Both the position numbers and the translations under genes were made by a program. Below are positions 7,658 to 60,238 of a stretch of DNA of 64,000 nt, one piece after another. Numbering within the stretch: the first letter of the stretch is position 1; every line of letters begins with the position of its first letter. The DNA is from Tigriopus japonicus (lineage: Eukaryota > Arthropoda > Copepoda > Harpacticoida > Harpacticidae): assembly GCA_010645155.1 (NCBI GenBank), contig CM021321.1, positions 1,827,497 to 1,891,496 on the forward strand, given 5' to 3'. The notes under the pieces were generated by a model. The model was not told where the DNA came from and made no database searches. It was given only the letters and a program-made list of their open reading frames with translations.

Positions 7658-8429
7658 TCACGTCATGCTGAGAAGAGGGGGTCGCTTATCGGCAGATGGC
7701 GGAGCGTGAGGCGGTCCGACCAAATTTTCCGAGGCAGCGGGAGTACACGAGCCTCCACCGCCGGTGAGTTGAGTTACACTTAGAGGATGGTTCGAGTCTT
7801 TGGGATCACGTCCCACAGCTGCCCTTTGGGGCATGTGGTGAAAGTAGGCTGGCGGCTTGAAAGCTCCTCCACCGGCGGCAGCGACGGCGGAGGCTCGACT
7901 GAACCAATCGGAGGCCAGAAACGAGGCCATTGGATTGTCATAGTTTGAGGTGGTGAGGCTGGAAGACGATGGGGTTGACGGGGAGGCGATGGACGAGCCA
8001 CCAGGAGACCCAATGCTCGGCAGGCTATGGAAGCCCGCTGGAGACCTGAGGCTGGGTTCGGAGGTAGATTCGACACTAGCTGGGCCGTTCAGACCCATGG
8101 GGGAAGCTTCGCCGGGACTTTCATCATCATCGTCCTCACCGTCAGAGTGGAAATGGCCTTTGTTTCCACTTCCCGGCCCGCCTGGATTGCCCAGACCATT
8201 GGAATGAGGTTTGGAGCCTCCATGAGGGTAGTTCCTGAGGTTGGCAAAGCCGTTAGTGCCATCGCCAAATGGATGATGCAAATGAGATCCTGGTCCCGTT
8301 CCACTAGAGGGACCATTGTTCCCAATGGAGCCTGCTGAATTGCTGCCCGACGAGGCTGCACTGGCTGCAGCAGCGGCGGCTGATTTCCCTTCCAGATAAA
8401 CCTGAACTCGAATACACTTCTTCTTCCTC
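7658..8429 (-). CDS. pan: TCF exon 11: end of C-clamp and C-terminal tail
   Basis: 772 nt, entered in phase 2 after the acceptor TTTGCAG. It begins RKKKCIR, supplying the fourth C-clamp cysteine. A low-complexity Ser/Gly/Ala tail follows with an acidic run ([16 protein letters not shown]). Near the end is [11 protein letters not shown], reminiscent of CtBP-type PLS motifs in some TCF tails (weak inference). The frame closes at TGA 7658-7660. Only the first 15 or so residues are strongly conserved. Confidence 0.9.
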
Positions 8430-11400
8430 CTGCAAATAGAAGATGAAAGGGAATTTGTGAGAACTTCTGAGAAGATCAAATCAACTCATTATGACGAGAT
8501 GAGGGACTTTCGTGCACACATGCATCGCACAGTAGACGTCGTCGTCGTCGTCGTCGCTGGGATCCAAACAGACTAGCTACGTAGGATGCCAGCTCGAGGG
8601 GTTCGTTTCTCCAGGAATTGAGTTGGAGCATACTGCATATACGATTCGAATGGTACACGCGGATACCATGGCTCTGTAAATGTTGGAATGCTCAAAAGTA
8701 CAAGGATCACGTCACAAAAAGATCGAAAAAGGGGTTCCTGTCTGAAGCAGACTTTTGGAACCGACTTGCGTATAGATAATTCATTTCAATTACTGAACAT
8801 TCCTTGGAGGAGCTTTACTTTAGTTCACCCAACATTAACATAACAAGTTTCCATTTACAATACGAAAGCCTGGAGTAAACGAAGGGAGCCAAGCATATAT
8901 TTGCTACTATGATATTAACATGCTTCAGAATGAACCAACATAAGGAGAGGGAGAAAGAGAGAACATTAACAGGAAGTGGGGAAGAAGAACTTCTTGGATA
9001 TGGAGGAAGGAAGAACGAACGCTTCCCATCCCGCCATCAACCCCAAACGTGCGACTCCAAAGGCAGAGTGAATAATTAAAATAAATTGAACTTATCAAGA
9101 AATATGAAGGCAAAGAGAAACCTGAAGAATTAATCTCAAGGCACAACGACGAAACGAAAAAATCATACACACACGAAAGAGGCTGCCTCACTGGTGATAC
9201 TTTTCAACGTGCAAGATGAATGTTGGCCATGGGCATTCTCGGAAGACATTGCATTCGGACCAGACTCAAGTGCTACCCACGAACTAGGTAGCACTTCTAC
9301 TTGATACACTACGGCTAAACCGTCGATGCAGTTTCTGCGAGCTTGATACACCAAAACGAGGAGGAAAGTCGATTCTTACGGAAACATGAATTATTACCCA
9401 CACAGCCAAATGCACCCCTCAACCCTTCAACGGCCAACCAACTCAACCATTTAGAGAGAGATGTATTTTGGCTCATTGGAATAAGGGGTTGAAGAGTTGT
9501 CATAGTCCTCCTTGGTCGATACCAAAGAATTAGGATTTTGGGCCACGCTCATGGCAACAGGATGTTGGGCAGTGTTGGGCACACCCATGTCATACATATC
9601 AGCTATTAGGTCATGTTGGGACATGGGCGTGGAAATTGGGGAACCAAAACTCGGGTCCTCGTAGGAATTGGGAGGCATCTGATCATAGTAAGGGGTAGGT
9701 GGGACGTATTGGGACGACACAGAAGGAGGGTCCTCAAACAGGTGGTTGGCCACGAGTGTATTATTGTTATTACTGGATCCAGTTAGCGGCACAGGGACCA
9801 ATTTAGAAAAGTCAATCAATTCCGAGGAAGAAGAGGATCGATTCGTGTGAACCGGAAGGTATTCGTCGCCGTATGTTGTTAGGGATTGGACATATTCAGG
9901 GTGTTGTTGATGATGATTGGGGTCATTGATGGGCATAAGGCCCATAGAGAGGTAGTTTTGATCAAGGGATTGGTTCGAAGCCGGTCTGATATAACCATTG
10001 TTATTGGTGTTTGGCCTTTGGGGCGATCCAAAACCACTCTCTATAGATCCATTAGCGGATGCGCCGAGTTGCTCGTCAACATTCAAGTTGTGGTTAGTGT
10101 TCGAGTTATTGCCGTTCATGCTGTTGTTACCTGGACTGTTAAGATTAGAGTGAGCAGCGTGGAAATAGAGATAAACCGTGGTTAGTATCAATAAGCCCGG
10201 ATAAGCCCAGGTAATATGCAACGGAAAGGGTTGTTTTAAGACGAGAAGCCACAAAGGTTTGCCACAAGAGACAACAAGCCTGAACCCCACAAGGAAACAC
10301 GGTTAAAGATAGACAGAAAGAAAGAAAGAGAACGAGAGAGCCCAGGAAGGAAAGAGGACTTGAAGCCAAACAGAGCGTGGAGGAGCCCCAAAGTTTTTGT
10401 TTGTTTTTCCACCCCCAGGAAAAAAGTCTGCCTCATAAAGGCATCATAATGGGAAAGAAAAGCGTTAGTGTGAAACGTTGTCAATATTTGTCGAACCGCC
10501 ACCTCAGATTATTGCGGCGCCCCATCTAACCTCCTCATTTCACCTCAGTAAATTTAAGATTCTACTTTGCGCTTTTGGAGCGAATGTGTTTGTTGTGCTG
10601 TAAGTCTGGACACTTCAGAGAGCTGACTTGAACCATGATTGACACTCGGAAGGAAAAGGTTTAAAAAGCAAACATGTGCGAGCGATCAGCTTCTCTTATC
10701 TCGGTTTCTTTTTCTTTCTTTCGTTTGTTCGTTTGTTCCCTTACATATGATGAGGATCATGAAAGAATTTTTGGCGGCTTACCTGCAAGGTTTACACCAA
10801 AGGTCTTGTTGATCGAGTCCAAAGCGGGCGCGGCATTTCTTCATACTCGAGGCTGAAAGAGAAAACAAATATTACTCGTAATAATCATGTTCCTCATTGA
10901 ATAGCCCCATCAAACAATACACACATACATACACACACACGAGAACAGCGACAGACAATAAAAGTGAACAAATGGAAATCTCATGTCAGTTTTCTCCGCA
11001 GAGCGAGCGACGACCCCAACAAAAACAGGGACAAGTATTTTCTCGCCGACGATTGATTTCCGTCTCAATTTTCAACAATCATCTGTGGGTGTGTTGTATG
11101 TGTGTACGTGTTGGGTAAGAGAGCTTATGTATAGAGTATATACACACACTCAATGCAATACTTGCACAAAAAACGACTAGAAATGTGTTGTAAAACGCTG
11201 CTCCTGACATTGTTTGGAGAGAAATGAAAATGTTTCGCTCTTCTTGAGGCCAGCAAAAAGGAGAGACAGAGAGAGACACGGATCCACTACTACAAAGAAA
11301 TCCAGGATCAAAGAGACTTGGAGATGAGGAGAGAGGGACCAAAAAGGAGGAGGCTCAGACAGATACAGAGAGAGGAGGAAAAGGGACTTGAGGATGTCGG

Positions 11401-14400
11401 AGGTTGGTTCAACGAGGAGCAATAAGCCAGCCGAGGCACGGATAAATCTTACTGCTGCTGCTGTTGCTGCTTTTATGACAATTGAGATGAGATGATTGAG
11501 GCCATTCAACGAAAAATGCTAGGACAGATTTCAATCCTGGTCTAAGCATTCCCGAAAAGGGGCGCCGTGATTGCTGTAGATTGGAGGAATGCTACAGCCT
11601 GGTTGGAACGTTCATGGACACGCCATATTTCATTAGTAATGTTGAAAGGTGGTCATTTCTGTCATGTGACTGTGGTTGGCGCTTTGGCAAGTGGTGTTGA
11701 GCAATAGTAGCAGTGGTAGATTTTAAGAAAACAACAACGGTGACGTTCACAGCAAACCAGCACACTTGAAAGAACATTGCAAAAAAGAAAATGTCACACA
11801 TAGAGAGAACACAAGTGAGAAAGCTCGTCTCGAGGGGCTTTGTCGTCTCTTCTCCCAGCTAAGATCGTCTCCAAATACAGGAACTTGACGATAGTGGTTG
11901 GTTGATTGTTCAATGATCTCGATCCCAAAAGTTATATAGTCAAAACAACAACAACAACAACAACAACACAGTCAAGCTTTTGAGGTTGTGACAAACATCG
12001 ACTCCGTGTACCTCCACCGGCCGAGTCTCCATTGGAGACCCCGCCTCCTCCTCCTCCTGCACCCCCATTGCCATCTCTGATCACTTCTTTCCGACGCTTT
12101 TTCTTCTTATGTTTGGCATAATTATCTCGAGCAGTCCAGCCCGGATAGCGGTCCATGTGGATCTGTCTCTCCTTCCGAGCCTGATCGTAATACTTGGCCT
12201 GTTCCACTTTACTCAAACTATGCCACTGAAATGAACCGAAGAGGTCCAAGATTAGACAGATCGTAAATTTGCTTACCTGGATCATCAGCTTTGTCGCGTT
12301 TTCGCTTCTTCTTTTTCAGTCCAAAGCGATAATTGTCCCTAGCGTTCCAATGAGGATACATTTGCATGTGCTTCTGTCGCTCAGCGCGGGCCTTTTCGTA
12401 ATACTTGGCCTGCTCATCGCGACTCAAGCTGTGCCACTGAAATGGGGGAAGACAACAATTGATTGAGGGAACGAATGACATTCATGTTTTGTACTAAGTG
12501 ATGACGGTGAAGTGGAAGACGATGGCTAGCTGGATGGCCTCCACATACTACAGATCAGTTCGTCTGGTGCTTCCCTGAATGGCAAATGTTGATTCGGGGC
12601 TTGCAACCGTTAAAAAAGAAGAAGATTTGTGGAAGCACAAGATGACAGAACAGAGAGTCTGTCTGAGTGAGCACACTTGAAACGAGTTTGACCTTCTTTT
12701 TAGCTTGATTTGTTTAACGGCCGTTCAAGACACATTGGGTCCTCGTCTATTTGAGGTCCCAAAGCGCATAGACGCATGCACGCACTCAAACAAACCATGC
12801 TTCACCGACATTTTATCCCTCTGAAGCATCAGACATACTTTTCTGGTCTCCCCCCTACCCCGACTAGGTGTGCAAATCTTGCTCACTTCAAAGACAATAA
12901 TTCCAGTCTTTTCTACTATTCCCACCTTGGAACTATCATTAGATCTTGTGATTATTTTTTGCCACCAAATTTGAGAAGGGATCTTCAACGAATGCCTAGT
13001 CCAACCAACTACCGTAGTAATGTGTGTGTGCGTGCTAGTGTATATACAGTACTGGTCTGAAGGAGGGACCAGGTTAGGCTTGGAAAATAATCTCTCGGGT
13101 CTGAATGTTATGTTTGGTGTGTTCATGTGTTTAATCCCGCCTAACACCATGCTGAGATGATGATCTTTTTTCTTTCTCCTCTTCTTTCTCGTGGTCTTCA
13201 GGGCCCACTCTATGTATAGAGCTACATAATAGACCCAGGCAGAACAGAGCTAGCTGCCTCGGGTTTTTTTAACGACCAAGGCGTCTTCAGCAGTACTACC
13301 ACTATTTGTCTCTTGGTGATAAAAAAAATGAAATGAAAAGACACGAGAACAAGCACACGAAGACGCGGGAGACCGAGAAACTAAACAAGATCTGCCAAGA
13401 TCACACAAACACTCACACAGCACATTCGACGACGGTCGGTCGAAAATACGGACGAACGAGCAGACAACAAGCGGCTTCTGCTGCTTATTTACCAACCGAA
13501 AAAAAATCACAATTCAGACCGACCGCTCATCTGAAGACACAAANNNNNNNNNNNNNNNNNNNNNNNNNNNNNNNNNNNNNNNNNNNNNNNNNNNNNNNNN
13601 NNNNNNNNNNNNNNNNNNNNNNNNNNNNNNNNNNNNNNNNNNNNNNNAGCAGACAACAAGCGGCTTCTGCTGCTTATTTACCAACCGAAAAAAAAATCAC
13701 AATTCAGACCGACCGCTCATCTGAAGACACAAAAAGTCCGAATGCCAATTTTCAAACGGACAAGGTGTCAGAATTGGAAAGATTTGCTTTTTTAGCCCTC
13801 CCTTAGTCCCCTCCCCATCACTTCAAGCGTTGGACACCCAATACTAAACTCGACCAAGCAGGCCTTTTAGCGTCATTTGGAGATTCACAAATTGCAGGTT
13901 CATTTTCAACGAGTCCATGAAACTGGCAATTTGAAATTAATTTTCTCGTTTGTGTCGTAAACCGCATCACGGAGGTGCTTTTTTATATCAGGCCATGGAC
14001 AAGACTTTGGTGTTAAGTGTTGTTTGTTGTCGGGGCTAGATTTCAAAGTTCGAGATTCCAATCTCATATCAAACAAGCTGTTGACAGGGGCATAAATCCA
14101 ATGTCGGATCGTCGGCAATGCTGTTCAATGTAACGCGTGGAGACTTCCAAAAATAGGAGCGACATTACTCTCCGCTTTAACGCTCTTTGATCAAGAGCAA
14201 TTAAGAAGCTTTTAAAACTTCCACTTCGTAACAAAACACAAAACCAGTTGACATCATTTTCCTCGAAGAGACCTCAGACGATGAATGAATGAAATGAGGG
14301 ATGGAAGAAACTTTGTGAATTTATTTACCCTGCGTCCCAGAATCTGGTTAATGGCAGCCGATTCCTTGAGGGTGCATTCGGCTTGAACCACGGGTCTCAT

Positions 14401-17400
14401 CTCCTTCATGTACAGCATGAATGCATTTAAAGGCTTTTTGATGTGAGAGTCGCGTTTACTGGCTTTACCTGAAATAAGAAAGATCATGCAAATAAATAAC
14501 TCGATGGCCTCAAGTTGAATGTAGCCTGTACTATAGGATAGGTGTGAGGCTTGCAAAGAAGACTGAAGGGACGTGGTGGTCAAAATAAAAAGTTGACACA
14601 TAACTCAGACTTCAATTGAAATAATGCATTCATTGCTGCTAAGGAGCAACAGAAGAAGGCTCTTTTTCTATCTTGGGGATTAAGAGGATGATAACAAGCA
14701 AACATGTCCGGCCAATGCCTGCCTGTCTTACGATTACTACTCTCAAACCTGGCGGAGATGCTTTCTTGTGTTTATTTATGGATTTTCTGAGGCGTCTCAG
14801 ACAAGAGTGATGTTGACTTCGAAGTCGTCATTGTGATGGTCGTCTTCGTCTAACACTCTTCTTCAAGAGATAGCCGGTTTGGCCCTCGAGGAAAAAGGCT
14901 GAGTTATGAGCCTCTTGATTGTAACACTTCTCGTTTGAATTCATGAGCCTTGCGGTTCTTGTTCATGACTGGTCGATTCATTCGCACTAATTCTCTTAGT
15001 ATACTGTAATGTAAGTAGTACTTACTTGGACTATGAAGGTCTTTGTCGGAGTGATGAGATCCACGGGAGTGACCGTATTCTTGTTTCATGTGCTGAGGTA
15101 GATGCTGCCCGTGGACACCTGCACCCACTGGACTTCCTGCGGCCACAGCAGCCGCTAATCCCGGATGGCTCAGAAAACCCGTGGGTGAAAATCTTGACAT
15201 GGAGCTAATAAGACGAGGAGTAGAAGAAAAATACGAGATTCATTAGATACACATCACCGAGCCCATGTTGACACCCCAATCCATCAAGGTTCAATAAGCA
15301 TTTCACGTACGATTTTCACACCCGATTTTGATGAAAAGATAACGCTTGGAAATAGAATGGCATTTCTACTCGAGCAAGGAGGGCACGAAATATCACAAAC
15401 ACGCGATTGATCCACCCACAAAAGAACGGAAATCATTCGTTTCCAATAAATTGGGCAATCCCACATGAAATTGGGGTCATTTTCACGCTAAATTCCAATG
15501 CTACTCAATCAATTGATCCCTATCTAGAAGGAGGGATTGGTAGCTCAACTTTGGAATTGTCGAGAAAGGAAGGGCAATAGGTTGTGGCACAAGTTGGTCA
15601 TATATCAAGTCTGGAATGCCAATCAATGCTTTGGTCAGGAAACGGGGAAATTTTCCGGGTCAATTCCAGTAGAAGGTTACGCGAAAGAAACTTGGTCTGA
15701 CAAGATCGGAGGCCACACCGGGAAACCTTCTTCTCTCACACTTCTTTAAGAGATCTTAGCAAATGTTTTGGCAGATAATCGCGAGGTTATCGCCAAAAAA
15801 CGTCACAAACTTTGCACACTCTAATGTACAAGGTTAGAGTAGGCCATCTCCAAAAAGTTATTTTTTCATCTGACAGGCGTTTTCACAAAGGTAATTCGCC
15901 AGAACGAACCATCACATTCGGTGTGGTTTGCTGACTTGCTAGCTAGTAGATGATACCTCGGTAGCTAGCAAGCTTGGCTGAGCAGGGCCGTGTAATTAAA
16001 TTAGAGAATGCGAAAAATTTGCGCCATTTTTCGCCTATTCTCGGCCCCTCTCCACCAACCACTGTACATAAACTCACCTTAAACTGGTTGAGGTAATAGG
16101 AAGACTGTAGGGAGAACCAGGACGCAAACCATAGGCTGCTTGGTGATGCCTGAAATCGAGAATAAAACCCGTGAAATTCTTAATCATAACCCAGTTGATT
16201 TCGGTTAGTGAGTTCACACCTGAAACAAGCCTCCTCTCTCTATTTCTCTAACACTCCCTTTTCTTCTTCCATGGTTATCCGATTCTAACCTCGCGCTATA
16301 CAATATGTACGTACTTGTGCGTGTATATCAAGTTCATTGGGATGAATGCCATGTGTGAACTGGAAACCAAGAATCATGATACGAATAAGTACCTTAAGCA
16401 GATTCAAACCAGGAAAGAGTCGAGTAGAAAAACCGGGGCTAGCACCGGGAAATATTAATAGCATGCTGTCATGAATCTGCTGCCAAATCCGGAGTGATGG
16501 AATTCGCGAATTAGCCTTGCCAAGGTGACCAAGCTAGTCCAAAGCACTCAGATTGTGAACGCTTCCTGTGCTCGATTGAGTTGTTTCTTCCCTTTTTATC
16601 AGAGGAAGAAGGGAGGGGGAGAACGAAAGAAAGAAGCGTTTTGGCAATAATTTCGTAATTACATGATGCCCTAATGGCCCCTTGTCACGCTGGATAGCAA
16701 TTGCAAATTCAATTGGAACATCTTTACTCATACGAAGTGTGCTCGGTAGGTCTGTCAGAAAGATGCTGCGTACTGCTGGCGATCAAGCCATCATCGGAAA
16801 AGTTCGTCGACACGAACCATCCCACCAACAACCCGAGTGAAAAGAAGACCAAAGTTTTGTTATTTGTTCTACTTACCAAGCTGCTAATTGGTCTGCACCT
16901 AGCATATGATAAGGGTAACCAGCCGCAGCGGCTGCTGCAGCGTGTGGAGGCAATCCATACAACGGAGGCCGTAGACCTACGGAGAGTTGAAAGAAACGAC
17001 GCGTTATTATTAGTATTGGGATGATTTGAGCCCACATAACCACTAGCTTGGGATAAAAAGCCAACTCATTTGTTGCATGTCATAATTTGGGCTACTGTTT
17101 TTCCCCTTTGAGATTTTGTTGTGAGGGGCTACATAAAACAATTTGCCAAAATGGAGGACTTTAGTTCAGGAAGATGGCGAGACTATTAGGGTGAAAGGAG
17201 GGCCCATTTTTTGCTTGGAACTAGGGGCCGAGACAAAATTTGGTGGTGATTATTAGCGTGGCTCGTTGGGCCAACAACGAGTCTTGGGTAATCTTGACAT
17301 CATCAATCTCCCACTTTTCAACTTGAAGCTCTACCGTCGAGTCTTTGGTGCCAGTTGCCACTGAAGAGAGCCGAGAGCCTCTCTCGCACTCACTATGCTG

Positions 17401-32400: not shown

Positions 32401-34947
32401 GAATTGGAGATAAGGAAAATGTGCTTTGGAAAGGTTTCATGCTTGATAAAACTCTGATAAAGCTGAGATGACATTCCACCTCTGGGCACGTTATGATGAA
32501 GTTTTCGAAGACTGGAAGTGATGGGGACTTACCGGCAAATCCATCTCTGCGGGATTTCTCCTGAAAATGTAAGAGAACACGGCGATTAGTACAATGATGG
32601 TCATTGGGGCGGAAGAAACTGAACTTTCGCTCTTCAAAGGATTCGGGTTCGCTCGCTCGCTTGCTCCTTCCTTGAGCAAATATTACTTTAGACATGAATG
32701 AAAGTCGAGGAGAGGAATTGAAGGAGACTGCTGCTATGGATTGGAACATACGCACACTCAACGGAATGTTCAAAGCCATTTCCGAGTTGTGAGGCCGGGG
32801 TCAAAACATTCATAAAAGCGTCCCTCGCAACCGCAACGGAGCTTAGAGAAAGCTTGAAGGACAGCTCATAAATTTGACTTCTAGCCTTTGTTTTAGCCTT
32901 TGACTTGTTCATTATTTACTTTCTGCATTCATCACGACATTTGTAGTTCTAAGAATTTTCAAGAGCGAGAGAGCGAGTGTGAGAGGGAGAAAGAAAGAAA
33001 AAAAGAGATAAGGGCCACAATTTGCGTGAGCCCAATGCAGAAACACAGTCACATATACACACTTTGATGAGATTAATGCTTGAAACTTTTGACAGGTCGA
33101 ACAGTTTTATCTGCTCCATTTCGTCTTAACCTATTAATGTATTATCTTGTGGCAAGTTTACTTTTACTAACAATTGCTTGAGGACCAATTCTCAATCCCT
33201 CATCCGGATGAAAGATTCTGACATCATCGCCGCGAGAAGACCCATGCTTCAGCACAGATGATGACAATATTTCGTCCAAGCATCATGATCGTTTTGCATG
33301 AAATTGGTCATTTTGATCCGGCCTCAGTAGTTGAGCACATGGCAAAAGGCAAAAGCCTGGGCACCATGACAGTGGAAAAATTCTCCAAATCCACACACGT
33401 AATTTTGCTGCTAACTAAATTGCTATTGCCATCATGTTATAAAATTAAATTGCCCCCTTAAATGCTCTCTCTGGGCTCGAACATTCACTCACTCACTCAC
33501 AGAATGTGGCAGTGCTTCCTTCTACGGGTGGGTGAGGGTGTCTGTCTATGTACTGTTCGTTCTGCTCTAACATGGATCATGCGGCTGTTGTGAAGTAGGA
33601 CTACATAGGTCCAAGAAGAGAGATGTGTGTGTGTAGCAATTCAACTGTACAAAAGCGAATGCTCAATTCGACCGAAAGGTTCACAACAGCAACATTTTGC
33701 ACTACACCAGAGTCGTTGATATCAGGTTTCAGAAATACAGAAAAACTTCCAAACTCGTGCAAAATGCGTCGAATGCTATCTTCCAACCCCATCTACAAAC
33801 CAGGAGGAGCGATGAGGGGTTTCTCGAGAAATTTCATCGTTTAGTGTTGAGAGTTTCCCAGACTCTTCGATGCTCGCTATTATATTGGGGGGATTGTTGG
33901 TGGTATTCAAATTTGAATTTAAATTTCACGACCACGATTGGACTATACTGTAGTTTATTCGGGAATGGCCAAGAATACCGTTACGTTCAGATTTCAATAG
34001 TTTTACGTAAATAACGACCGCAAAGCGAGTTCACTGGTTCATCCAATCCTTGTCATACAAGAATTGAATGAAGGTTAGGAGCAAAACCCATTCAGTGTTG
34101 CACTCTGCTCTGTGAGAGCCAATATTCGACCTGTTTCACTTTGGGACTAGGCACAAGTTGACCGGGAACAGACTGGCCAACCACTACCAACCCCTCCTCT
34201 AAATTGGAGGTTTCGAAAATTGGTCAAAATCATCAATTTTGGGGGTTAAGAGGTTTTCTCTCTGGCTCTTGGGCAGTGCAGCCAACAATCGTTGTGAACT
34301 ATTCTACCACGGACGAGTGAGGTGGTTGAAATGGGAGGAGGGGATATATATTGACCAAGGATTTTGAGAGCTCAAATTGCACCCAGTCCAATGACTGGGG
34401 AGCTTAAGAGGAGAAAATTTTGGGAATTTGGCTCTCCAGAGGAAATGATTGGGACTTAGTTGGGCATTATTTTTGAATTTTCATAGACTGAGTGACGAGT
34501 GATCCGAGATTGGATTTTAATTTATTGTTCCTTATCGCCAAGAAAAGGCTCTGTTGTGCTTTTTCGACCAGCTGAGAGACACTCACTGACATTTGCTTTC
34601 AAGGGGTAAATAACGCCTTCTCCTGTCACTTGACAATTTGACCGTGGTCTTACCTGCTCTGACTCGGTGATGAGGCTAGATTCTTCCTCGAGAAGATCTG
34701 CTTGGAGGTTCCCAGAATCACTTTTATCCCGGTCGTCCTCACCCTCGTTTTGGAACACCTTCACCTCATCTGAAGAGGGACCTAACTCGTCGCCTCCTGG
34801 GCCAGAAGGTCCAGAGGGCCTCGACGAGGACGTAGAGCTTCCTGAAGGACTAGAACCAGAGCCACGGCCACTGGGACCCGCACTGGCTACCACTAACGAG
34901 CCCGCAGAGGGCCCCCCCGAATTGGAAACCACAGTTGGCATGGTCAT
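7658..34947 (-). CDS. pan: TCF/LEF transcription factor (pangolin orthologue), 11 coding exons
   Basis: This is the nuclear effector of Wnt/beta-catenin signalling, a sequence-specific HMG-box DNA-binding protein that recruits beta-catenin. The coding exons on the minus strand are 34654-34947, 32533-32560, 30139-30215, 17988-18075, 16877-16976, 16078-16149, 15026-15204, 14329-14468, then 12277-12436 (9A) or 12012-12225 (9B), then 10783-10852 and 7658-8429. Every junction is GT-AG and every phase matches. The lengths sum to 660 codons with 9A and 678 with 9B, stop included. In the 9A form, residues about 52-98 are the beta-catenin-binding segment, 100-280 the proline/alanine-rich middle, about 287-360 the HMG box, then a KKKKRKRDK basic tail. 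The C-clamp cysteines are C386, C399, C402 and C408, and the tail is serine/glycine-rich. The identification is firm; exon choice and the 5' end are inferred. Confidence 0.93.
8430..9450 (-). other. TCF intron between alternative and final 3' exons
   Basis: About 1 kb with no supported exon. It contains a (GAC)n-like run near 8537-8556 and purine-rich stretches. If the exon ending at 9451 is terminal, part of this would be its 3' UTR. Confidence 0.5.
9451..10135 (-). CDS. Candidate alternative terminal exon of TCF (Asn/Ser-rich tail)
   Basis: An open frame of 228 codons ends at TAA 9451. It encodes an Asn/Ser/Pro-rich tail with acidic aromatic patches ([36 protein letters not shown]), resembling a transactivation region. 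A TACTAAC branch-point match lies about 40 nt upstream of the acceptor TTAACAG (exon end 10135). That acceptor is phase 2 and fits the donor of exon 10. A second acceptor TCCAG (exon end 10130) is phase 1 and fits exons 9A and 9B. Joined to exon 10 it would lack the fourth C-clamp cysteine. I saw no AATAAA closely after its stop. It could instead be an unrelated gene's exon, but composition and phase favour TCF. Confidence 0.6.
10783..10852 (-). CDS. pan: TCF exon 10: C-clamp core
   Basis: 70 nt, phase 1 to 2. It encodes [20 protein letters not shown], the first three cysteines of the C-clamp, a second DNA-binding module that reads helper sites beside the HMG site. The acceptor is TTTCAG and the donor GTAAGC. 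No long open frame reveals this exon; it was found by motif. Confidence 0.93.
11944..11970 (-). repeat. (GTT)n tract in the intron after exon 9B
   Basis: On the transcribed strand this is about eight GUU repeats starting some 40 nt downstream of the exon 9B donor. GU-rich tracts are known binding sites for CELF/Bruno-type splicing regulators. A role here is inference from position only. Confidence 0.7.
12012..12225 (-). CDS. pan: TCF exon 9B: second half of the HMG box (alternative 2)
   Basis: 214 nt, phase 0 to 1. It encodes [20 protein letters not shown], then [13 protein letters not shown], a basic tail KKKKRRKE, and a 20-odd residue glycine-rich linker including GNGGAGGGGGG. It is a paralogue of 9A in the same register. 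Its acceptor is CATTTCAG and its donor G|GTACAC is weaker than that of 9A. Intact HMG residues and basic tail argue against a pseudo-exon. Confidence 0.88.
12277..12436 (-). CDS. pan: TCF exon 9A: second half of the HMG box (alternative 1)
   Basis: 160 nt, phase 0 to 1. It encodes [20 protein letters not shown], then [13 protein letters not shown], then the basic tail KKKKRKRDK and a short linker ADDP leading to the C-clamp exon. The acceptor is CATTTCAG and the donor GTAAGC. It lies 51 nt upstream of exon 9B in transcription order and shares both splice phases with it. Confidence 0.93.
12437..14328 (-). other. TCF intron 8, containing an assembly gap
   Basis: The intron lies between the two HMG-box halves. 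I see no further exon copy of the HMG second half in the sequenced part. The gap at 13544-13647 leaves that not quite closed. Confidence 0.5.
13544..13647. other. Assembly gap with duplicated flanks
   Basis: A run of N. The roughly 80 bases before it (from about 13460) recur almost identically right after it (13648-13732), with a one-base difference in a poly-A. This pattern is typical of two overlapping contig ends scaffolded without merging. Confidence 0.95.
14329..14468 (-). CDS. pan: TCF exon 8: first half of the HMG box
   Basis: 140 nt, phase 1 to 0. It encodes helix 1 and most of helix 2 of the HMG box. Motifs [28 protein letters not shown] and QILGRR are near-invariant in TCF/LEF proteins. 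It ends exactly at ...GRR, so the next exon must begin with the conserved Trp; both 9A and 9B do. Confidence 0.95.
15026..15204 (-). CDS. pan: TCF exon 7, upstream of the HMG box
   Basis: 179 nt, phase 2 to 1. It encodes a segment containing [16 protein letters not shown], an Ala/Gly stretch, and a His-rich run ending SDKDLHSP. The donor GTAAGT follows CCA-A. The first base of the split Ser codon is completed by GT of exon 8. Confidence 0.85.
16078..16149 (-). CDS. pan: TCF exon 6
   Basis: 72 nt, phase 2 to 2. It encodes [20 protein letters not shown] and then TSL. The acceptor is TTTCAG and the donor GTGAGT. The frame is confirmed only through the neighbouring exons' phases. Confidence 0.82.
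16877..16976 (-). CDS. pan: TCF exon 5, poly-alanine segment
   Basis: 100 nt, phase 1 to 2. It encodes [20 protein letters not shown] and then [12 protein letters not shown]. The final TG is completed by G of the next exon to give Trp. The acceptor is CCGTAG and the donor GTAAGT. Confidence 0.85.
17988..18075 (-). CDS. pan: TCF exon 4, proline-rich conserved block
   Basis: 88 nt, phase 0 to 1. It encodes [20 protein letters not shown] then TYLDKAGVA. The PPPAHMG block is a recognisable conserved patch in the TCF middle region. The acceptor is TTCCAG and the donor GTAAGT. Confidence 0.85.
18076..30138 (-). other. TCF intron 3, about 12 kb, no supported exon
   Basis: The largest intron. Open frames within it, including the 203-codon minus-strand frame at 25386-25997, show no domain and no joinable splice structure. 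Simple repeats and purine-rich runs occur throughout. An internal promoter for a shorter TCF cannot be excluded from sequence alone. Confidence 0.5.
27031..27135. other. Assembly gap with duplicated flanks
   Basis: A run of N inside TCF intron 3. About 115 bases ending at 27030 recur almost identically at 27136-27250, with a few substitutions. This looks like unmerged overlapping contigs or two haplotypes. Confidence 0.95.
30139..30215 (-). CDS. pan: TCF exon 3
   Basis: 77 nt, phase 1 to 0. It encodes [19 protein letters not shown] followed by YANGSHL. Aromatic PYLF-type motifs and alanine runs occur in this part of arthropod TCFs. The acceptor TTTCAG and donor GTAAGA are clean. Confidence 0.82.
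30216..32532 (-). other. TCF intron 2, no supported exon
   Basis: A 264-codon minus-strand frame (31985-32779) overlaps the microexon and extends into this intron. It reads straight through the exon's donor and lacks conserved features, so it is treated as chance. Confidence 0.5.
32533..32560 (-). CDS. pan: TCF exon 2, a 28-nt microexon
   Basis: It encodes EKSRRDGFA plus one base. It has a clear acceptor (TTTTCAG) and donor (GTAAGT), phase 0 to phase 1. Charged RDKSRE-like sequence follows the beta-catenin-binding segment in other TCFs, which supports the assignment. It is too short to be seen by open-frame length. Confidence 0.75.
32561..34653 (-). other. TCF intron 1, no supported exon
   Basis: About 2.1 kb with no recognisable coding exon. 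Short runs of (CA)n and ACTC repeats are present near 33490. Confidence 0.5.
34654..34947 (-). CDS. pan: TCF exon 1: N-terminus and beta-catenin-binding segment
   Basis: It encodes 98 residues. The first 50 are a Ser/Gly/Pro linker. Residues 52-98 match the family's beta-catenin-binding segment, with an acidic first half ([10 protein letters not shown], then FQNEGEDD) and a helix ending ESSLITESE. The ATG at 34947 is preceded in frame by TAG at 34963-34965; a second ATG lies at 34941. That TAG could also be the end of a splice acceptor (TTGTTAG), in which case the frame would continue upstream. The donor is GTAAGA after CAG, phase 0. Confidence 0.88.
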
Positions 34948-42590: not shown

Positions 42591-43831
42591 TAACAAAGAA
42601 CTACCTTCCAAAGAAACGGACTTGAATTGTCTCCAAGAGCGCATATATCAAANCAATTCGATTTTAGACAGTTTTGGTCTGGAGAGAATATTGGAATTTC
42701 CCCTAACGAACTGGATATTAAGGAAGGGAAGGCCGAAGAAATTTTGGCCATGGAGCATCAGAAACGCACAGCAAAATATGACAAAGTTGGAAAATTTTGG
42801 TCAGTAGAGTTGCCTTGGAAAGATCCCTCGCCAGGGGGGCAAATGTTGAGTGACAACCTATCACGGGCCATGGCAATGTGGAGGCAAGTCATGCGCCGCA
42901 TTCGGCCAGAACATGCTGAATTGGTCCTGAAAGCGTATGAAGAAATTCATACAATGGGGTTTTCTGAGCTGGTACCAGACGAGCAGATTGATAGAATCGA
43001 TCACCCGACGTATGTCATGACGAGTCATCCCGTAATACGGCTAAATAAATCAACAACGAAGTGCCGCATAGTAACGAATGCGTCATTGGCAGATCAAAGG
43101 GACAAATCACGGACTTTGAATAAGTTGCTCTTAGCTGGACCTAATCTTTTGCCTCAAATAACCGAACTAATACTGTATTCCAAGACAAAAAAGTTCATTA
43201 CCACCATTGACATTCAAAAGATGTTCCTTTCCGTGCGTTTGAGCAAGGAGTCAGATCGCGACATGTTGCGATACGTTTGGGCGCCGCCGGGGCAATCCGT
43301 GCCGAAGATCTATCGATTCACAAGGTTGCCTTTTGGCTGCGTTTGCAGCCCATTTCTGGCCATCTGGTGTCTGAAAGAAACGGCAAAAATGTGGGAAACA
43401 AAGTTTCCCGAAGCAGCTCAAATCATCCTCTCAAAAACGTACATGGATGACATTCTTATCCTTTCCGACTTTCACAACGAAATGAAAGTTTTGGTGGAAC
43501 AAATCTTAATAATTCTGGGTAGTGGAGGTTTCTACGGCCACAAAATATCCGCCAACGATTCATCCCTCTTAAAGAGCATTGATCAGAGCAGAGTAGATAT
43601 ATCATCGACGATGTCTCTTCTGGGTTTAACTCTGGATCTTGAAACTGACGAGTTCAAATTCGATTTAGATGATAAATTCCAACAATTCGACGAACACGCG
43701 GAAGTAATCACCCGCAGACACGTCGTATCGTTAGCCAGTTAAGTTTTTGACACCCAAGGTTTCGTCGCTCCTTACGTTATGCGATATAAAAGCATTCTCC
43801 CATTACTTTGGCATAACAATAATGGCTGGGA
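42591..43831 (+). pseudogene. BEL/Pao reverse transcriptase region
   Basis: It contains family hallmarks: FWSGENIG, then KFWSVELPWK, then CRIVTNAS, TIDIQKMFLSVRL, RLPFGCVCSPFLA and the catalytic TYMDDILIL at about 43438-43464. One ambiguous base lies at 42653. A TAA at 43740-43742 sits where family members read through into the VFDTQGFVAPYV block, which continues in the same frame up to the insertion at 43832. The enzyme would copy element RNA into DNA in cytoplasmic particles if intact. Confidence 0.88.
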
Positions 43832-46297
43832 CTAGAGCGCTTTAATAAAAGAGTACGCGCATGTGCCATTTTGGTCCCAAGACGTCGGTTCCATTGTACT
43901 GTGGTTCTTGGGTTCCACCTGTTTAAGGCAACTTTACCCATGCACTATTTACTACCAAATTGACGCTCATGATCTCAGCTTACCTTTGAAAGCATAATAT
44001 TTGACCTTAATAGCCTTTGAAGGCCAAGGCTGGCCAAAACCGTGCGTGCCGGAAGATAATCTTCTCGTCCTCCTTAAACCTCGATGCGCGTTCAAGCCCA
44101 GTGCTGCTGTGAATTGACTCGGTAATGTCAGCTCTTGATGAATCTCCATGCTGATTTGCATTGAGTTTCTTACTTTTTCGGAAAACTTAATCTAACTAGA
44201 TACGAAATTGATTGGTGAATATTTAGAACGCCACTTGAAGCCATTAGAGCGTTTTCCTTGCGCACAATATTGCATTGTCATGTGAGATGACTTTTTGTTG
44301 AACAATTATCTGGCAGCCCTGGTGAAGTTGCGCATTCGTAGCAGTCGTCAGGCTGACAGTGCTACAGACTGTTATGCCTAACTTTGTAAAAAAATTGATA
44401 TTTTGCACTCATAATATATATGACAGAAGCTATTTAAGAAAGTTTTTGCAATTCACCTGTCAATTTTTGACTTTGTCACTAATTATTAGATGAAACTAAA
44501 GAAGCTCATGGGGTAGAAGCATCATTTCAACTATTGGACTTGATAAAAAGCAAAATGTAACGGTTCTTTCTTTGCATCAAATGATGAATTATGAACAGGC
44601 CCACCAGATAGTAGTAAATTACATTTTACAATGTAATTACCAAAATCTGCGATTTTTGCCCAAAATTACATAAATGGGGAAAATTTTACATAAATGTGGT
44701 TAAATTGCCTGTTTCAATGGAACTATTATGGAAAAAATTTATGACAAAGTCAAGATAAAGAAACAAGACTAAACAGCGCATTACTTTTGTCACTAGGAAT
44801 CTTTAGTATATCATCAGGCCCGCTAATCGGTTGCAAATGACATTTTACATAGTAGTTACAAAAATGTGCAATTTTTGTCCAAAACTACAAAAATTGGGAA
44901 AAATTGGAAAAAAATGGAAATTGCCTATTCTGTTGAGAATGATCTACAAAAAGGATGTCAAAATAAAAATAAAAATAGAGGCGATTAAATTTTTAACAAT
45001 CATGACAAAATATAATTATTTTAGCATCTGTTCCTACCTAAGAAACAAAATTTAGATGATGCAAGTATGAAAAAGGTTAGTTTTTGAGGAAATATGTGAC
45101 CAAATTACCAAAAAATTACAAAAAAGTCCGATTTTGTTACATTATTTCTCAAAAAAAACTACCAAAAATAATGCATTTCTCAGCGAAATTTTTTACATAA
45201 ATTTGGTGGCCCTGCTTATGAATCAAAGATGCAAAGAAGTTGTGTTTGGTTTTGCTGAATCTCAAACCCATCAAAAACATTGCAACACTTTTTTAAAATA
45301 AAAATAGATAACCTAAATGAAATACTCACTTTTATGAATGGATAGGCACATTTGGACAATTTTAGCTTGAGATTTGGGGGTCCAAACTGCCTAAGAATGG
45401 ATCAGAACATGGCTTGGGTGTTTTGCAGTACAGGAAAAATTTGTTTTGATTGATTGTCAAAACAGCTTGAGAATTATAATCAATTTTTTTATTAAGTTTT
45501 TGAAGGGTTGGTCTCAACTCTGACACATCCCCAGCCATTTTGAGCCCAGAGTCCCCAGCTCAATTTGTTTGATAACAGTCTTCTATTGGAAAGAACTTTT
45601 TCCAGATGTTGCACAAGAAGAGGTTGTACAGATATTAAAGGGCAATGAGTCCAATTGTTGAAATGATACTTCTATCTCATGAGCTTCTTTAGTTTCATCT
45701 AATAATTAGTGACAAAGTCAAAAATTTATAGGTTAATTGCAAAAACTTTCTTAAATAGCTTCTGTCATATATATTATGAGTACAAAATATCAAAACTTTT
45801 TACAAAGTTAGGCATAACAGTCTGTAGCACTGTCAGCCTGACAACTGCTAGAATGCGCAACTTCACCAGGGCTGCCAGATAATTGTTCAACAAAAAGTCA
45901 TCTCACATGACAATGCAATTCAATGACAATTAGTTAGATTAAGTTTTCCGAAAAAGTAAGAAACTCAATGCAAATCAGCATGGAGATTCATCAAGAGCTG
46001 ACATTACCGAGTCAATTCACAGCAGCACTGGGCTTGAACGCGCATCGAGGTTTAAGGAGGACGAGAAGATTATCTTCCGGCACGCACGGTTTTGGCCAGC
46101 CTTGGCCTTCAAAGGCTATTAAGGTCAAATATTATGCTTTCAAAGGTAAGCTGAGATCATGAGCGTCAATTTGGTAGTAAATAGTGCATGGGTAAAGTTG
46201 CCTCAAACAGGTCGAACCCAAGAACCACAGTACAATGGAACCGACGTCTTGGGACCAAAATGGCACATGCGCGTACTCTTTTATTATAGCGCTCTAG
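43832..46297. mobile_element. Foldback element (2466 bp) inserted in the BEL/Pao pol
   Basis: The termini are CTAGAGCGCT and AGCGCTCTAG. The arms are long inverted repeats (43832 to about 44546, and about 45641 to 46297), with a loop of about 1.1 kb. It is flanked by CTGGGA at 43826-43831 and 46298-46303. Removing the insert plus one CTGGGA restores the pol frame, since 2472 is divisible by 3. The right arm has a deletion of about 100 bp relative to the left. I see no transposase, so it is non-autonomous; the superfamily is undetermined. Confidence 0.88.
44596..45214. mobile_element. hAT-like MITE nested in the foldback loop
   Basis: 619 bp with inverted ends CAGGCCCACCAGAT and, reading inward from the right, CAGGGCCACCAAAT. 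The flanking 8-mers ATTATGAA and CTTATGAA differ only at the first base. The body contains internal direct repeats of a TTACA/TTTTTGYCCAAAA type. CAG-type ends and an 8-bp duplication indicate hAT. Confidence 0.8.
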
Positions 46298-47320
46298 CTG
46301 GGACGAGAATTTATTGGCTAAAGGAAGGCCAAATTCGAAAACGGACAAGGAAGCCGACGAAATTGCGCAAAGAGCAGTAACTTTATTCAAAGAATGGATC
46401 GAGCAAATTCCCCTACTAAAGCAGTTTGCCTTTCCCCGTTGGAGTGGTGGTCCAATTGCGTTTATCGCTATCTTCAGCGACGCTAATACGGTTGGGATGG
46501 GTGTAGCAGCATACATGATCTCACGTATTGGAACCAACAGGTTCGAATCTCAGCTAGTCTTTGCCAAAAGCTCGCTGATGCCCAAAAACTTGCGAAAAGG
46601 AGCCAAGGCTGAAGACTTGACTATCGCACGAGCAGAGTTAATTGGCATAGTAATGGCAGTAAATGTTGGCCGATATCTCCAGAACGCCTACAAAGACTTT
46701 ATCAGTAAGGCAGAGTTTGAGTACTTTACAGACTCGCTACTTAACCTCCAACGGCTCCAAAGAGGAATAGGTCAATGCAAAGTTTGGGAAGACAGACGAA
46801 TCCGGAGAATCCTTGAAGGAGCTTCAGCAGAGAAGGTTCATTTCTGCCCAGGAAAGTTGAATCCCGCAGATTTGCCAAGTCGGGGATGCTCACTCCAGGA
46901 ACTACAAGCTCAAGCTAGCTTTTGGGGAAAGGGTCCGGATTTCCTTGTTGAGCCAAGAGATTCATGGCCAAAGCAGCCTGTTATTTCCTCACAGGTAAAG
47001 CAAAATTAAAGGAAAAGTGCACCACCGCTAACCTTGCACGGGAAGTATCGATAACAGACTGGCAAATTTATTCAATACAAATTAAGGCACTTGACCTTGA
47101 GCAGAACACGGCAAAGACCAGCCATGAGAGTGAGAAACTAGATAATCTTGAGTTTCTTGATCAACTTGTGCTCAATTGTTCAACATGGACAAAAATTGTC
47201 AGAGTTCTTGCTCGAATCAAAAGAAAAAAGAAACCAGATGTGCAAGCACGAGCTCCCTTATATCCAATGAAGAATGGGATTGGGCTGAGATGCATTTGGC
47301 AAGACGAGCGAAAAATAAAT
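46298..47320 (+). pseudogene. BEL/Pao RNase H and connection region
   Basis: The RNase H-like block runs from FSDANTVGMGVAAYMISR through LTIARAELIGI to the YFTDSLLNLQ and NPADLPSRG motifs characteristic of BEL/Pao. The frame in phase with the reverse transcriptase closes at 47007-47009. The connection region then continues in a second frame (to 47326) and the integrase in a third, implying two frameshifts near 46980 and 47265. Confidence 0.85.
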
Positions 47321-49011
47321 TTTTGAGCAAGGACATGGAAATCTTGAAGCAGAGAAACGTTGTCAAGACGTACCTTAGACTGCCAAAAGGTTCTCCGTTA
47401 AAAGACCTTCCAGTCTATTGGGACACAGACGGTCAAGTAATTAGACTTGAGACAAGACTCCACTTGGCCTCATCCTTGACCCATTCGTTCAAGAATCCAA
47501 TTATTATGCCCAAAAGTGACATTGCACTGAAAAGAATTTTGCATGTTCATCAATCTCGAATGCATTCAAGCCAGAAGCAAACATTCGATATCATGCGGAA
47601 AAAGTTCTGGGTCCTGGGAGGTTTCAAATACACAAAATCGGTTGTAAAGCAATGCAAAACTCCCCGATGTCGATATGTCAGATTCGAATCGCCAAAAATG
47701 TCTCCGTTGCCTGCCCTCCGTGTTGACAATCCGAAGCCTTGGGTATATGTGGGTCTGGATTACATGGGTCCGCTTTTATGCAAGCATGAATGTTATCCAG
47801 AGATCTCTGCTCTTGTGAAATCCAACGAAGCAGGCAAAGTTCTTAATGTCGAGCAGAAACGGAAAAAGATCAAAGAGCTTGAAAACCGTTGTATTCATCC
47901 CCAAACCTACAAGGTATGGCTGGTATTATTTACTTGTCTTCACACGCGAGCGATTCACGTCGAGGCAGTAGCATCCTGCACCACGCACGAGTTCCTCAAT
48001 GCGTTTCGTCGATTCATCGGACATTGTGGGAAACCGACCATCTTCTACTCAGACAATGCGAAATACTTCAAAGCAGCCGACGCAAACCTCAACGAGATCG
48101 CAAAAATCGTTGACTTTGAGAGAATAAAGTCCGAGACAAACAGCGGTGAAGCTGCCATTGATTGGCAATACAGCACTCCAGAAGCACCATGGACAAACGG
48201 AGTGACAGAAAGGATGGGCGGTCTCTTCAAAAAACAGTTAAGGATTGCTCTGCAAAGAGAACTTCTCTCCCTGGGAGCTTTACAAACATTGTTGGTTGAG
48301 TTGAAGTGCGTAATCAATGACAGACCGTTGGGAGTTGTCAAACAGGAAGCCACTGAATGGATCTCCATCACTCCCAACCTTCTTGTGTACGGAAGACCAA
48401 TGAGTGAATTCGTGACACCAAACGCAAAGCAATTGGCGCAACTCAATTACGCAGACATTTGGATCACCCGAAAGAGGATAATGAACAAATTTTGGGGACT
48501 ATGGTTAAAGCAATATCTGCAAGAATTAAGCATAAATCAGAAATGGAGAAACGGGACCACTTCCGGCCTGAGGCCGGGCGACGTGGTCATTTTGAAGCAA
48601 GAAACATTGATGAAAAATTGTTGGAACCTTGCAAGGGTTAAGGATATTCTGACAGATCATAACAATGTCGTCGTTGCTGTTATAGTTGTTAAACCAAATG
48701 GGCAAGTGTTTAAACGGACTGCCCGACAGGTTGCTCTGTTGGAGCCCAATTGTCAAAGCACGGAGGAAGCAGAATTCAAATCCCCGCATGGGATTGGACG
48801 TGCTGGAAGTGAAGGTCAGACGTTGACGGACCTTGGCTCGGGAGGCCTACCGGGCCAGGATATCCAATCTCCTGAACTCCACCGACCCTGCCATGAAGAT
48901 GCGACGGAGGAGAAGGATGCTGACCCAGGGGATGCAGATATCCTGGCTGTTGACCCTGTTTCTCAAAACTCTCCCGGATTGGAATGTGAAACGGATGCCA
49001 GAGTTCCATGA
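47266..49011 (+). pseudogene. BEL/Pao integrase, largely open
   Basis: The N-terminal zinc-binding part includes MHSSQKQTFDIMRKKFW and CKTPRCRY. The catalytic DDE core shows GLDYMGPL (first Asp), FYSDNAKYF (second Asp) and NGVTERMGG (Glu). A C-terminal domain has RPGDVVIL and VARQVALLEP-like sequence. The frame is open from 47176 to 49011 and is the best-preserved part of this element, but the upstream frameshifts mean no intact polyprotein. Confidence 0.88.
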
Positions 49012-58552: not shown

Positions 58553-60238
58553 CGATGTGGCATGAACTTCAGTCGTTGAAGCATCACCAAGTGTGGGACT
58601 TGGTGGAGCGACCAAAAGATCATCGGAACGAAGTGGGTATTCAAAGTAAAGCAAGATGAAGCCGGAAACCCAGAACGATACAAGGCCAGATTAGTCGCGA
58701 AGGGGTTTACTCAGCGTTTTGGACTCGACTATGATAAAACTTTCTATCCTGTTGCAAGGTTTGAAAGCATTCGTGTGCTACTGGCCATTTCAGCCCATCA
58801 GGGGCTAGTGTTACATCAAATGGACATTGGTTCAGCATTTCTGAATGGAGAAATTGACGAAGAAGTTTTTGTGCAACAACCTGAAGGTTTCGAGGTGCAT
58901 AATGATGGTGTTGAACTCGTGTGCAAACTCAAGAAGAGCCAAGATGTTGGAATGTGATGTTGGACACTGTTCTCAAAACCATTGGTTTTGAGCAGACAAA
59001 TGACTTGTCTTTATCATCACCGTGACAAAGAACTGATCTACTTGCTTGTCTATGTTGATGACCTTGTAATTGCAGGAAAAGACGAGGCAAAACTTGAAGC
59101 GATCAAGAAGAGTTTGATGGAGCATTTTCAAGTTAAAGACCTAGGCAGGCTGTCGTATTTTCTGGGCATCAAGGTCGTCCAGCGGGAAGCGGGAAGAATC
59201 TGGATTGGACAACCCCTTTATGCCTCCCAGCTATTGCAAAAGCATCAAATGAGTGACTGCAAACCTGTGGATACTCCAATGGAAACAAACGCCAAGCTGG
59301 TCCGGGCTTTACCCGGTGACAAAACTGTGAATGACAAAGAATTCAGGTCCATCTTGGGAGGACTTTTGTACCTCTCGATTCGAACAAGGCCTGACCTGGC
59401 ATTCTGTGTGGGGGTGATTGCAAAGTTTAGTGCTACTCTTACACCAGACCATTGGTTTGTGCTTAAACAAATTCTGAGGTATGTCCGAGGAACGTTGACG
59501 AAAGGAATCGAATTTCGACGATGTGTGGATTTAAAAGTGATCGGTTATTCCGATGCTGACTAGGCTGGAGATGTCGAAGATCGTCGATCAACCTCTGGAT
59601 ATGTGTTCATGCTCTCTGGTGGGTCAATTTCTTGGCGAGCCCAGAAACAAAAGTCAGTTGCTCTGTCTTCAACCGAGGCAGAGTATATGGCCCTCTCGAG
59701 TGCATCTCAAGAAGCAATTTGGTTGAAAAACCTATTGAAGAGTATGAAGTGTGAAGCAACGGAACCTATCGTGATCTACGAGGACAATCTACCATCGATT
59801 GGTTTGGCCAAAAATCCCCAGTTTCATGGACGTGCCAAGCACATTGCTATTGGGTCCTTTAAGGAGCAGCTGACTGGGAGGTCACAGTACATACAGTAAG
59901 ACTGGGAGGTCACAATAGTAATACAGCTCCAGAAATTGCACCCTGACACAAACATGTGACCCATTTTCGAGCTTCTAAAGGTATATTGGACACATTAGAA
60001 CAGAAATTTTGTGCATCAAAGCTCAAAGGTTGCACGTGATTTCCATTTCACTGGTTGCGCTTGAAGGACTCAATACGCTATCACTTCACGAGGGAACAGG
60101 TTGCCTCTGGGAACATCACCCTGAAATACTGCAAATCTAAAGACATGGTTGCCGACATTCTCACGAAGAGCTTATCAAGACCCAAGTTCAATAAATTGCG
60201 TCAATTCTGCTGTGTTGATTTTGACAAGTGAGGGGATG
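58553..60238 (+). pseudogene. Copia pol remnant (reverse transcriptase and RNase H), 5'-truncated
   Basis: Copia hallmarks in order: MWHELQSLKHHQVWDLVERP, a frameshift, IGTKWVFKVKQDEAG, RYKARLVAKGFTQ, QMDIGSAFLNGE, then a small deletion near 58950. These are followed by LVYVDDLVIAG at about 59045-59077, DLGRLSYFLGI, and RNase H motifs RRSTSGYVF, STEAEYMALS and NPQFHGRAKHI. A TAG at 59561 replaces the Trp of a conserved DADWAGD-type motif. A MITE splits the RNase H tail. Gag, protease and integrase are absent. Confidence 0.88.
59851..60072. mobile_element. 222-bp MITE inside the Copia RNase H
   Basis: The inverted ends are TGGGTCCTTTAAG and TGAGTCCTTCAAG. Excision with a 2-bp AT (or TA) duplication rejoins the conserved AKHI and RYHFTREQ parts in frame. 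The short duplication would suit a Tc1/mariner-type element, but AT and TA cannot be told apart here. Confidence 0.75.

Follow-up and report, generated by a model that had tools for sequence, protein, structure and literature searches.

The beta-catenin-binding TCF (pangolin) gene of Tigriopus japonicus carries two neighbouring exons, 9A and 9B, which judged by their sequences are tandem-duplicated homologous exons and which very probably form a functional either/or pair, one exon being taken per mature mRNA. Each mRNA would contain 9A or 9B, so that two TCFs with a common first half of the HMG box would be made. TCF is the protein through which Wnt signalling finally switches genes on; if this reading is true, the exchange of an HMG-box exon lets one gene field two DNA-binding domains, and splicing could set target choice in this pathway. 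Sequence comparisons support a reach wider than the preliminary description of this DNA had supposed, with similar pairs in many insects and crustaceans.

Structure of the exon pair and of the gene

The window, meaning the whole stretch of 64,000 nucleotides that was analysed (C7:1827497-1891496), lies inside an assembly of 194.9 Mb, and the TCF gene is read from its minus strand. Exon 9A (12277..12436, 160 nt) encodes version A of the second half of the HMG box with the basic tail, and exon 9B (12012..12225, 214 nt) encodes version B, which has a Gly-rich extension. They are separated by an intron of 51 nt (12226..12276) that contains a CTAAT motif. The lengths of both exons are 1 mod 3 and their phases are identical; a Trp codon opens each of them directly after the AG, and a GT follows each. 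Coordinates, phases and splice sites agree with those first described, and the joins to exon 8 (14329) and exon 10 (10852) fit. The assignment of both exons to the second half of the HMG box and the basic tail was likewise borne out, since LEF-1 (2lef_A) aligned over the domain with an E-value of 4.5e-40 when 9A was used and of 1.8e-41 when 9B was used.

The DNA of 9A and 9B is 72% identical over 116 nt, acceptors included. A protein search of the animal's own genome with 9A as query found 9B (E 2.6e-13) and the reciprocal search found 9A (E 1.1e-12), thus the resemblance is not due to chance. Neither search revealed a further copy within the gene itself. Beyond the neighbouring TCF gene described below, nothing else matched 9A, and what else matched 9B did so weakly (E 1e-3 to 0.4). 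An assembler could in principle have duplicated a single exon, and a run of N between exact repeats in the upstream intron would be in line with such an artefact. However, the two exons share just 72% of their DNA sequence and the gene model of Tigriopus californicus contains both, so that we rejected this explanation as having next to no probability. The exact direct repeats around the N run (13459-13543 and 13648-13733), which lie in the intron that separates exon 8 from 9A, probably represent an overlap left unmerged at a gap in the assembly.

The remaining exons, all on the minus strand, were located as follows. The beta-catenin-binding exon, with a possible start codon, was placed at 34654..34947, its ends being inferred from the PF08347 match, the open frame and a donor (CAG/GTAAGA). 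The assembly contains no other match to PF08347; this one spans 34390-34803 of the window (E 1.7e-6) and overruns the exon end into two stops. Central exons were found at about 18.1 to 15.0 kb by tblastn with the T. californicus model P0001. Exon 8 (14329..14468) encodes the first half of the HMG box, as seen from its splice sites and from a match to PF00505 positions 1-39 (C7:1841822-1841938, E 7.0e-7), and ends at 14329 with CTG GGA CGC AGG/gtaaat. Exon 10 (10783..10852) was recognised by the sequence motif CRARF...WCKPC, the start of the C-clamp. Two alternative last exons follow: exon 11 (9451..10135), which is used in the T. californicus and T. kingsejongensis models, lacks the last Cys of the C-clamp and ends in EPKYISL and a stop, and exon 12 (7658..8429) supplies RRKKKC. 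The C-clamp is therefore complete with exons 10 and 12 and incomplete with exon 11. By combining 9A or 9B with exon 11 or 12, the gene could give rise to four different C-terminal parts of the protein. PxYVNL-type ends, akin to the PKYISL end of exon 11, were observed in 50 of the 304 proteins from the searches described below (best 120 per search).

Reading frame and probable mutually exclusive use

Use of both whole exons would lead to a stop 279 nt upstream of the last junction, and use of neither to a stop 61 nt upstream of it. Given the splice sites above, the frame is kept solely if one of the two exons is used, which supports the mutually exclusive reading. Inside 9B there is an AG at 12207, leaving 9B from 12206 on, at which 9A could be joined in frame to a shortened 9B with the join remaining open, and P0001 makes a comparable join. 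Because of this internal AG and the join in T. californicus, exclusivity is something that we infer.

It is improbable that 9A and 9B are spliced into one mRNA through the internal acceptor of 9B, which would duplicate the third helix and the tail. Besides the open in-frame join and its counterpart in P0001, a similar join in the Allacma model P0029 and the occurrence of two second-half segments within one model in 33 of the 304 proteins (best 120 per search) would agree with this possibility; however, a gene predictor dodging a frameshift would yield such joins as well. In addition, at least 15 other species have records with one type of exon only, and at 51 nt the intron is shorter than the introns of 72, 69-70 and 124 nt seen in the neighbouring TCF gene.

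For the either/or use that we prefer, steric block by the very short intron may enforce exclusivity. Between the putative branch A in the CTAAT motif and the donor there are 25 nt. Distances below 50 nt are treated as potential steric interference in the text available of a survey of such exons in humans (PMC5740500), and the distance at this putative motif is shorter than that. Messages with both exons or with neither would be removed by decay of the frame-shifted mRNA. By simple count the donor of 9A agrees with the consensus at 8 of 9 positions and that of 9B at 5 of 9, suggesting that 9A may be the default exon owing to its stronger donor, and 9B might be the regulated choice. RNA pairing would be another possible mechanism; for this, the introns offer three inverted repeats, all of which are weak and two CA/GT-rich.

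Constraint on both copies

Between 9A and 9B, 30 of 45 residues are the same, and over these 45 aligned codons pS is 0.767 and pN 0.267, with pN reaching or exceeding pS in 1 of 2000 bootstraps. Synonymous sites are saturated and yet two thirds of the residues agree, which shows that both exons are constrained. The top protein match to the gene was the T. californicus model P0001, which carries 9A and 9B almost unchanged. Compared with this species, 46 of 46 residues are identical in exon 8, 52 of 53 in 9A, 41 of 41 in the core of 9B and 90 of 104 aligned residues in the exon-11 tail. The one T. kingsejongensis model contains 9B and lacks 9A; here 44 of 46 residues are identical in exon 8, 36 of 41 in the 9B core and 108 of 216 in the exon-11 tail. 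Exon 10 is identical to that of both species (23/23). From these comparisons both 9A and 9B look old and under purifying selection.

It is very unlikely that one of the copies (9B would be the likeliest) is a functionless duplicate, in decay or rarely used. The donor of 9B is the weaker one (5/9) and its Gly-rich extension is variable within Tigriopus, but the core of 9B is kept in T. californicus and in T. kingsejongensis, where the sole model uses it, and pN is well under pS. We therefore rejected the reading of either copy as a pseudo-exon. The preliminary description had named absence of the pair from close relatives, together with relaxed selection on one copy, as what would speak against it; what we found is a relative, T. 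californicus, that has both exons at 52/53 and 41/41 identical residues.

Type-1 and type-2 exons in other arthropods

Three protein searches returned 5,825, 5,742 and 5,786 hits, and the best 120 of each comprise 304 distinct proteins. Two of the three queries contained both exons and each list ends at 120 entries, so that the sample is biased and the species counts are not a survey. Among the matches listed, 116 arthropod species were mapped by hand, which is not every listed arthropod; in this set a single mite (P0123) stands for the chelicerates, and neither branchiopods nor myriapods are included.

Among the matches listed, two second-half segments were present in 33 of the 304 proteins and one in the other 271. 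In 30 of the 33, a type-1 segment comes first and a type-2 segment second, the remaining three being from T. californicus, the ostracod Cyprideis and the bivalve Mya. At least 29 of the 116 mapped species have one gene model with two tandem second-half exons. Insects among these 29 include beetles, moths and butterflies, stick insects, a cockroach, a cricket, a psyllid, a louse, a wasp and a mayfly; the crustaceans include a decapod, an amphipod, an ostracod and a copepod, and a springtail is also among the 29. The pair sits between the first-half HMG exon and the C-clamp exon, in the same order as in our copepod. At least 15 other species of the 116 have separate type-1-only and type-2-only records, and in 13 of the 15 the two records agree in the listed size of the longest contig. 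In the 30 models with type 1 before type 2, the commonest residue differs between the types at exon positions 3, 5, 15, 18, 29, 32, 34, 36, 37, 38 and 40 of the first 40.

The two-exon models are probably automatic predictions that fuse alternatives; they nonetheless place both exons side by side, type 1 before type 2. Such second-half pairs are known as database records with numbered isoforms. The search of related genomes that had been suggested at the outset thus found both exons in T. californicus and comparable pairs across Pancrustacea among the matches listed. The suggestion that one gene could make TCFs with two different DNA-binding domains is supported by the logic of the reading frame, by the constraint on both exons and by the pairs of the relatives.

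Several single models deserve mention. The metagenome protein P0002, from a contig of 1481 bases, has a type-1 exon and exon 10 before a normal HMG order that is followed by type 2; as an apparent chimera it was excluded from the species counts. In the mite Halotydeus destructor (P0123) a second, diverged HMG-like stretch follows the C-clamp. Mollusc TCF models contain tandem first-half segments in Elysia (P0004) and Ostrea (P0005) and tandem second-half segments in Mya (P0014), which suggests that the exchange of HMG-box exons has arisen more than once.

Age and descent of the pair

A tree was built from 44 segments and 49 columns (LG+G4), with a bootstrap that had not settled. The type-2 exons of insects and malacostracans form one group (97/89). 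In the best tree malacostracan type 1 stands apart from hexapod type 1, although a single type-1 clade is not rejected (p-AU 0.40), and 9B is unplaced, with a p-AU of 0.18 for its grouping with type 2. Descent of the copepod pair from the insect and malacostracan pair is the reading favoured by these sequence comparisons. A separate origin of the copepod pair, with a like structure, is unlikely, though it carries real weight: the best tree does not put 9B with type 2, and a clade of 9A and 9B is not rejected (p-AU 0.09). This clade, however, costs 11.7 log units, 9A adjoins hexapod type 1, with weak support (69/42), and EKAR and the exon order agree with type 1.

Starting from common descent, we put forward a broader proposal, tentatively and with rather more doubt than confidence. 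The pair would have existed since the ancestor of copepods, malacostracans and hexapods, higher flies would have kept type 2 only, lophotrochozoans would have acquired a first-half swap independently, and Tigriopus would use the pair as a linker switch. The 12 brachyceran species mapped have type 2 only, among the matches listed in one list that favours no type. Under this proposal the Drosophila model would have failed to reveal the pair, since higher flies would have kept type 2 only, and the 12 brachycerans hint that Drosophila is perhaps unrepresentative. The structure of Drosophila pan was reportedly described by Dooijes and others in 1998. Were the proposal true, one Wnt pathway would have two modes of reading DNA, and the Tigriopus switch would set the linker (10 or 29 residues) and thus the spacing of bipartite sites.

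Predicted effect on DNA binding

The 9A and 9B versions differ in helix 3, in the spacing of the basic clusters and in the linker to KKCRARF, and helix 1 is common to both. The linker between HMG box and C-clamp has 10 residues with 9A and 29 with 9B. According to the text available of a paper on TCFs, helix 1 binds the minor groove and the basic tail contacts the major groove, and the linker of Pangolin, which has 10 residues, is postulated to set the preferred spacing of HMG and Helper sites (PMC4154663). From this postulate an isoform-specific HMG-Helper spacing is predicted for Tigriopus, in which linkers of 10 (9A) and 29 (9B) residues would select the spacings that are bound, and the swap of the exons might tune DNA bending and affinity. 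Whether the swap affects target choice in this way, through tail and linker and by tuning bending, affinity and site spacing, is close to evenly balanced in our judgement, leaning slightly towards doubt.

In the structure models headed P0003 and P0001, helix 3 of both versions is helical, with a block pLDDT of about 86-92. The mean pLDDT of these models is 50.0 and 53.8, helices 1 and 2 run together, and a Foldseek search with the P0003-headed model gave no match at E<=0.001. For these reasons the models contribute little beyond what the 2lef alignments show.

Comparison with known systems

In the vertebrate FOXP1 exon 18/18b switch, splicing exchanges part of the forkhead domain. The Tigriopus pair is similar in that part of a DNA-binding domain would be exchanged, and differs in that FOXP1 is a forkhead protein and its switch is one of vertebrates. 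Closer to our case is Pdu-Tcf of the annelid Platynereis, in which, according to the text available, the first HMG-box half is encoded by alternative exons (PMC5996498). As far as that text goes, both systems have one TCF gene with exchangeable HMG-box exons that combine freely, in Tigriopus potentially, with C-clamp variants. Platynereis swaps the first half, and in Tigriopus the swapped part would be the second half, together with helix 3, the basic tail and the linker. The exchange in Pdu-Tcf was also demonstrated on cDNA and genomic DNA, according to the same text. The earlier statement that a swapped HMG-box exon is not known in TCF thus has to give way for the first half, and it stands for the second half as far as the open-access literature is concerned. 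Searches of that literature brought up no paper on a second-half swap or on its spread in Pancrustacea.

The type-1 and type-2 exons of insect and malacostracan pangolin have the same place and order as the Tigriopus exons, and both are joined to the C-clamp exon, as in Tigriopus; compared with them, the copepod exons are diverged and the linker of 9B is longer. The variants E, S and M of vertebrate TCF7L2 have alternative C-terminal exons like the gene described here, but the available part of that source describes no exchange within the HMG box of the kind proposed for Tigriopus (PMC4963812). Tandem duplicated exon substitutions are, in the text available to us, ancient homologous exons of which one is used per mRNA, and some are common to insects and crustaceans (PMC9741552). 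The cases in that text are mostly channels and the term 'transcription factor' is absent from it, whereas the Tigriopus pair would swap part of a DNA-binding domain.

A second TCF gene and other observations

The text available of the paper on TCFs ascribes a single TCF to nearly all invertebrates (PMC4154663). T. japonicus has a second TCF gene (C7:1772186-1772566) on the same strand, about 67 kb downstream of exon 9A. One exon 9 was found in it, sharing 75% identity with 9A (49 residues) and 72% with 9B (46 residues), together with a degenerate C-clamp (KKFRGKYG...WCKPC) and a tail ending in PKYISL and a stop. Upstream of this gene there is a weak stretch resembling the beta-catenin-binding domain (C7:1784554-1784829, E 3.4e-5).

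The window also contains remains of retrotransposons on the plus strand. Matches to reverse transcriptase, Pao peptidase and DUF5641/integrase lie at 42594-49011, and a copia-type RVT_2 match is located at 58958-59563.
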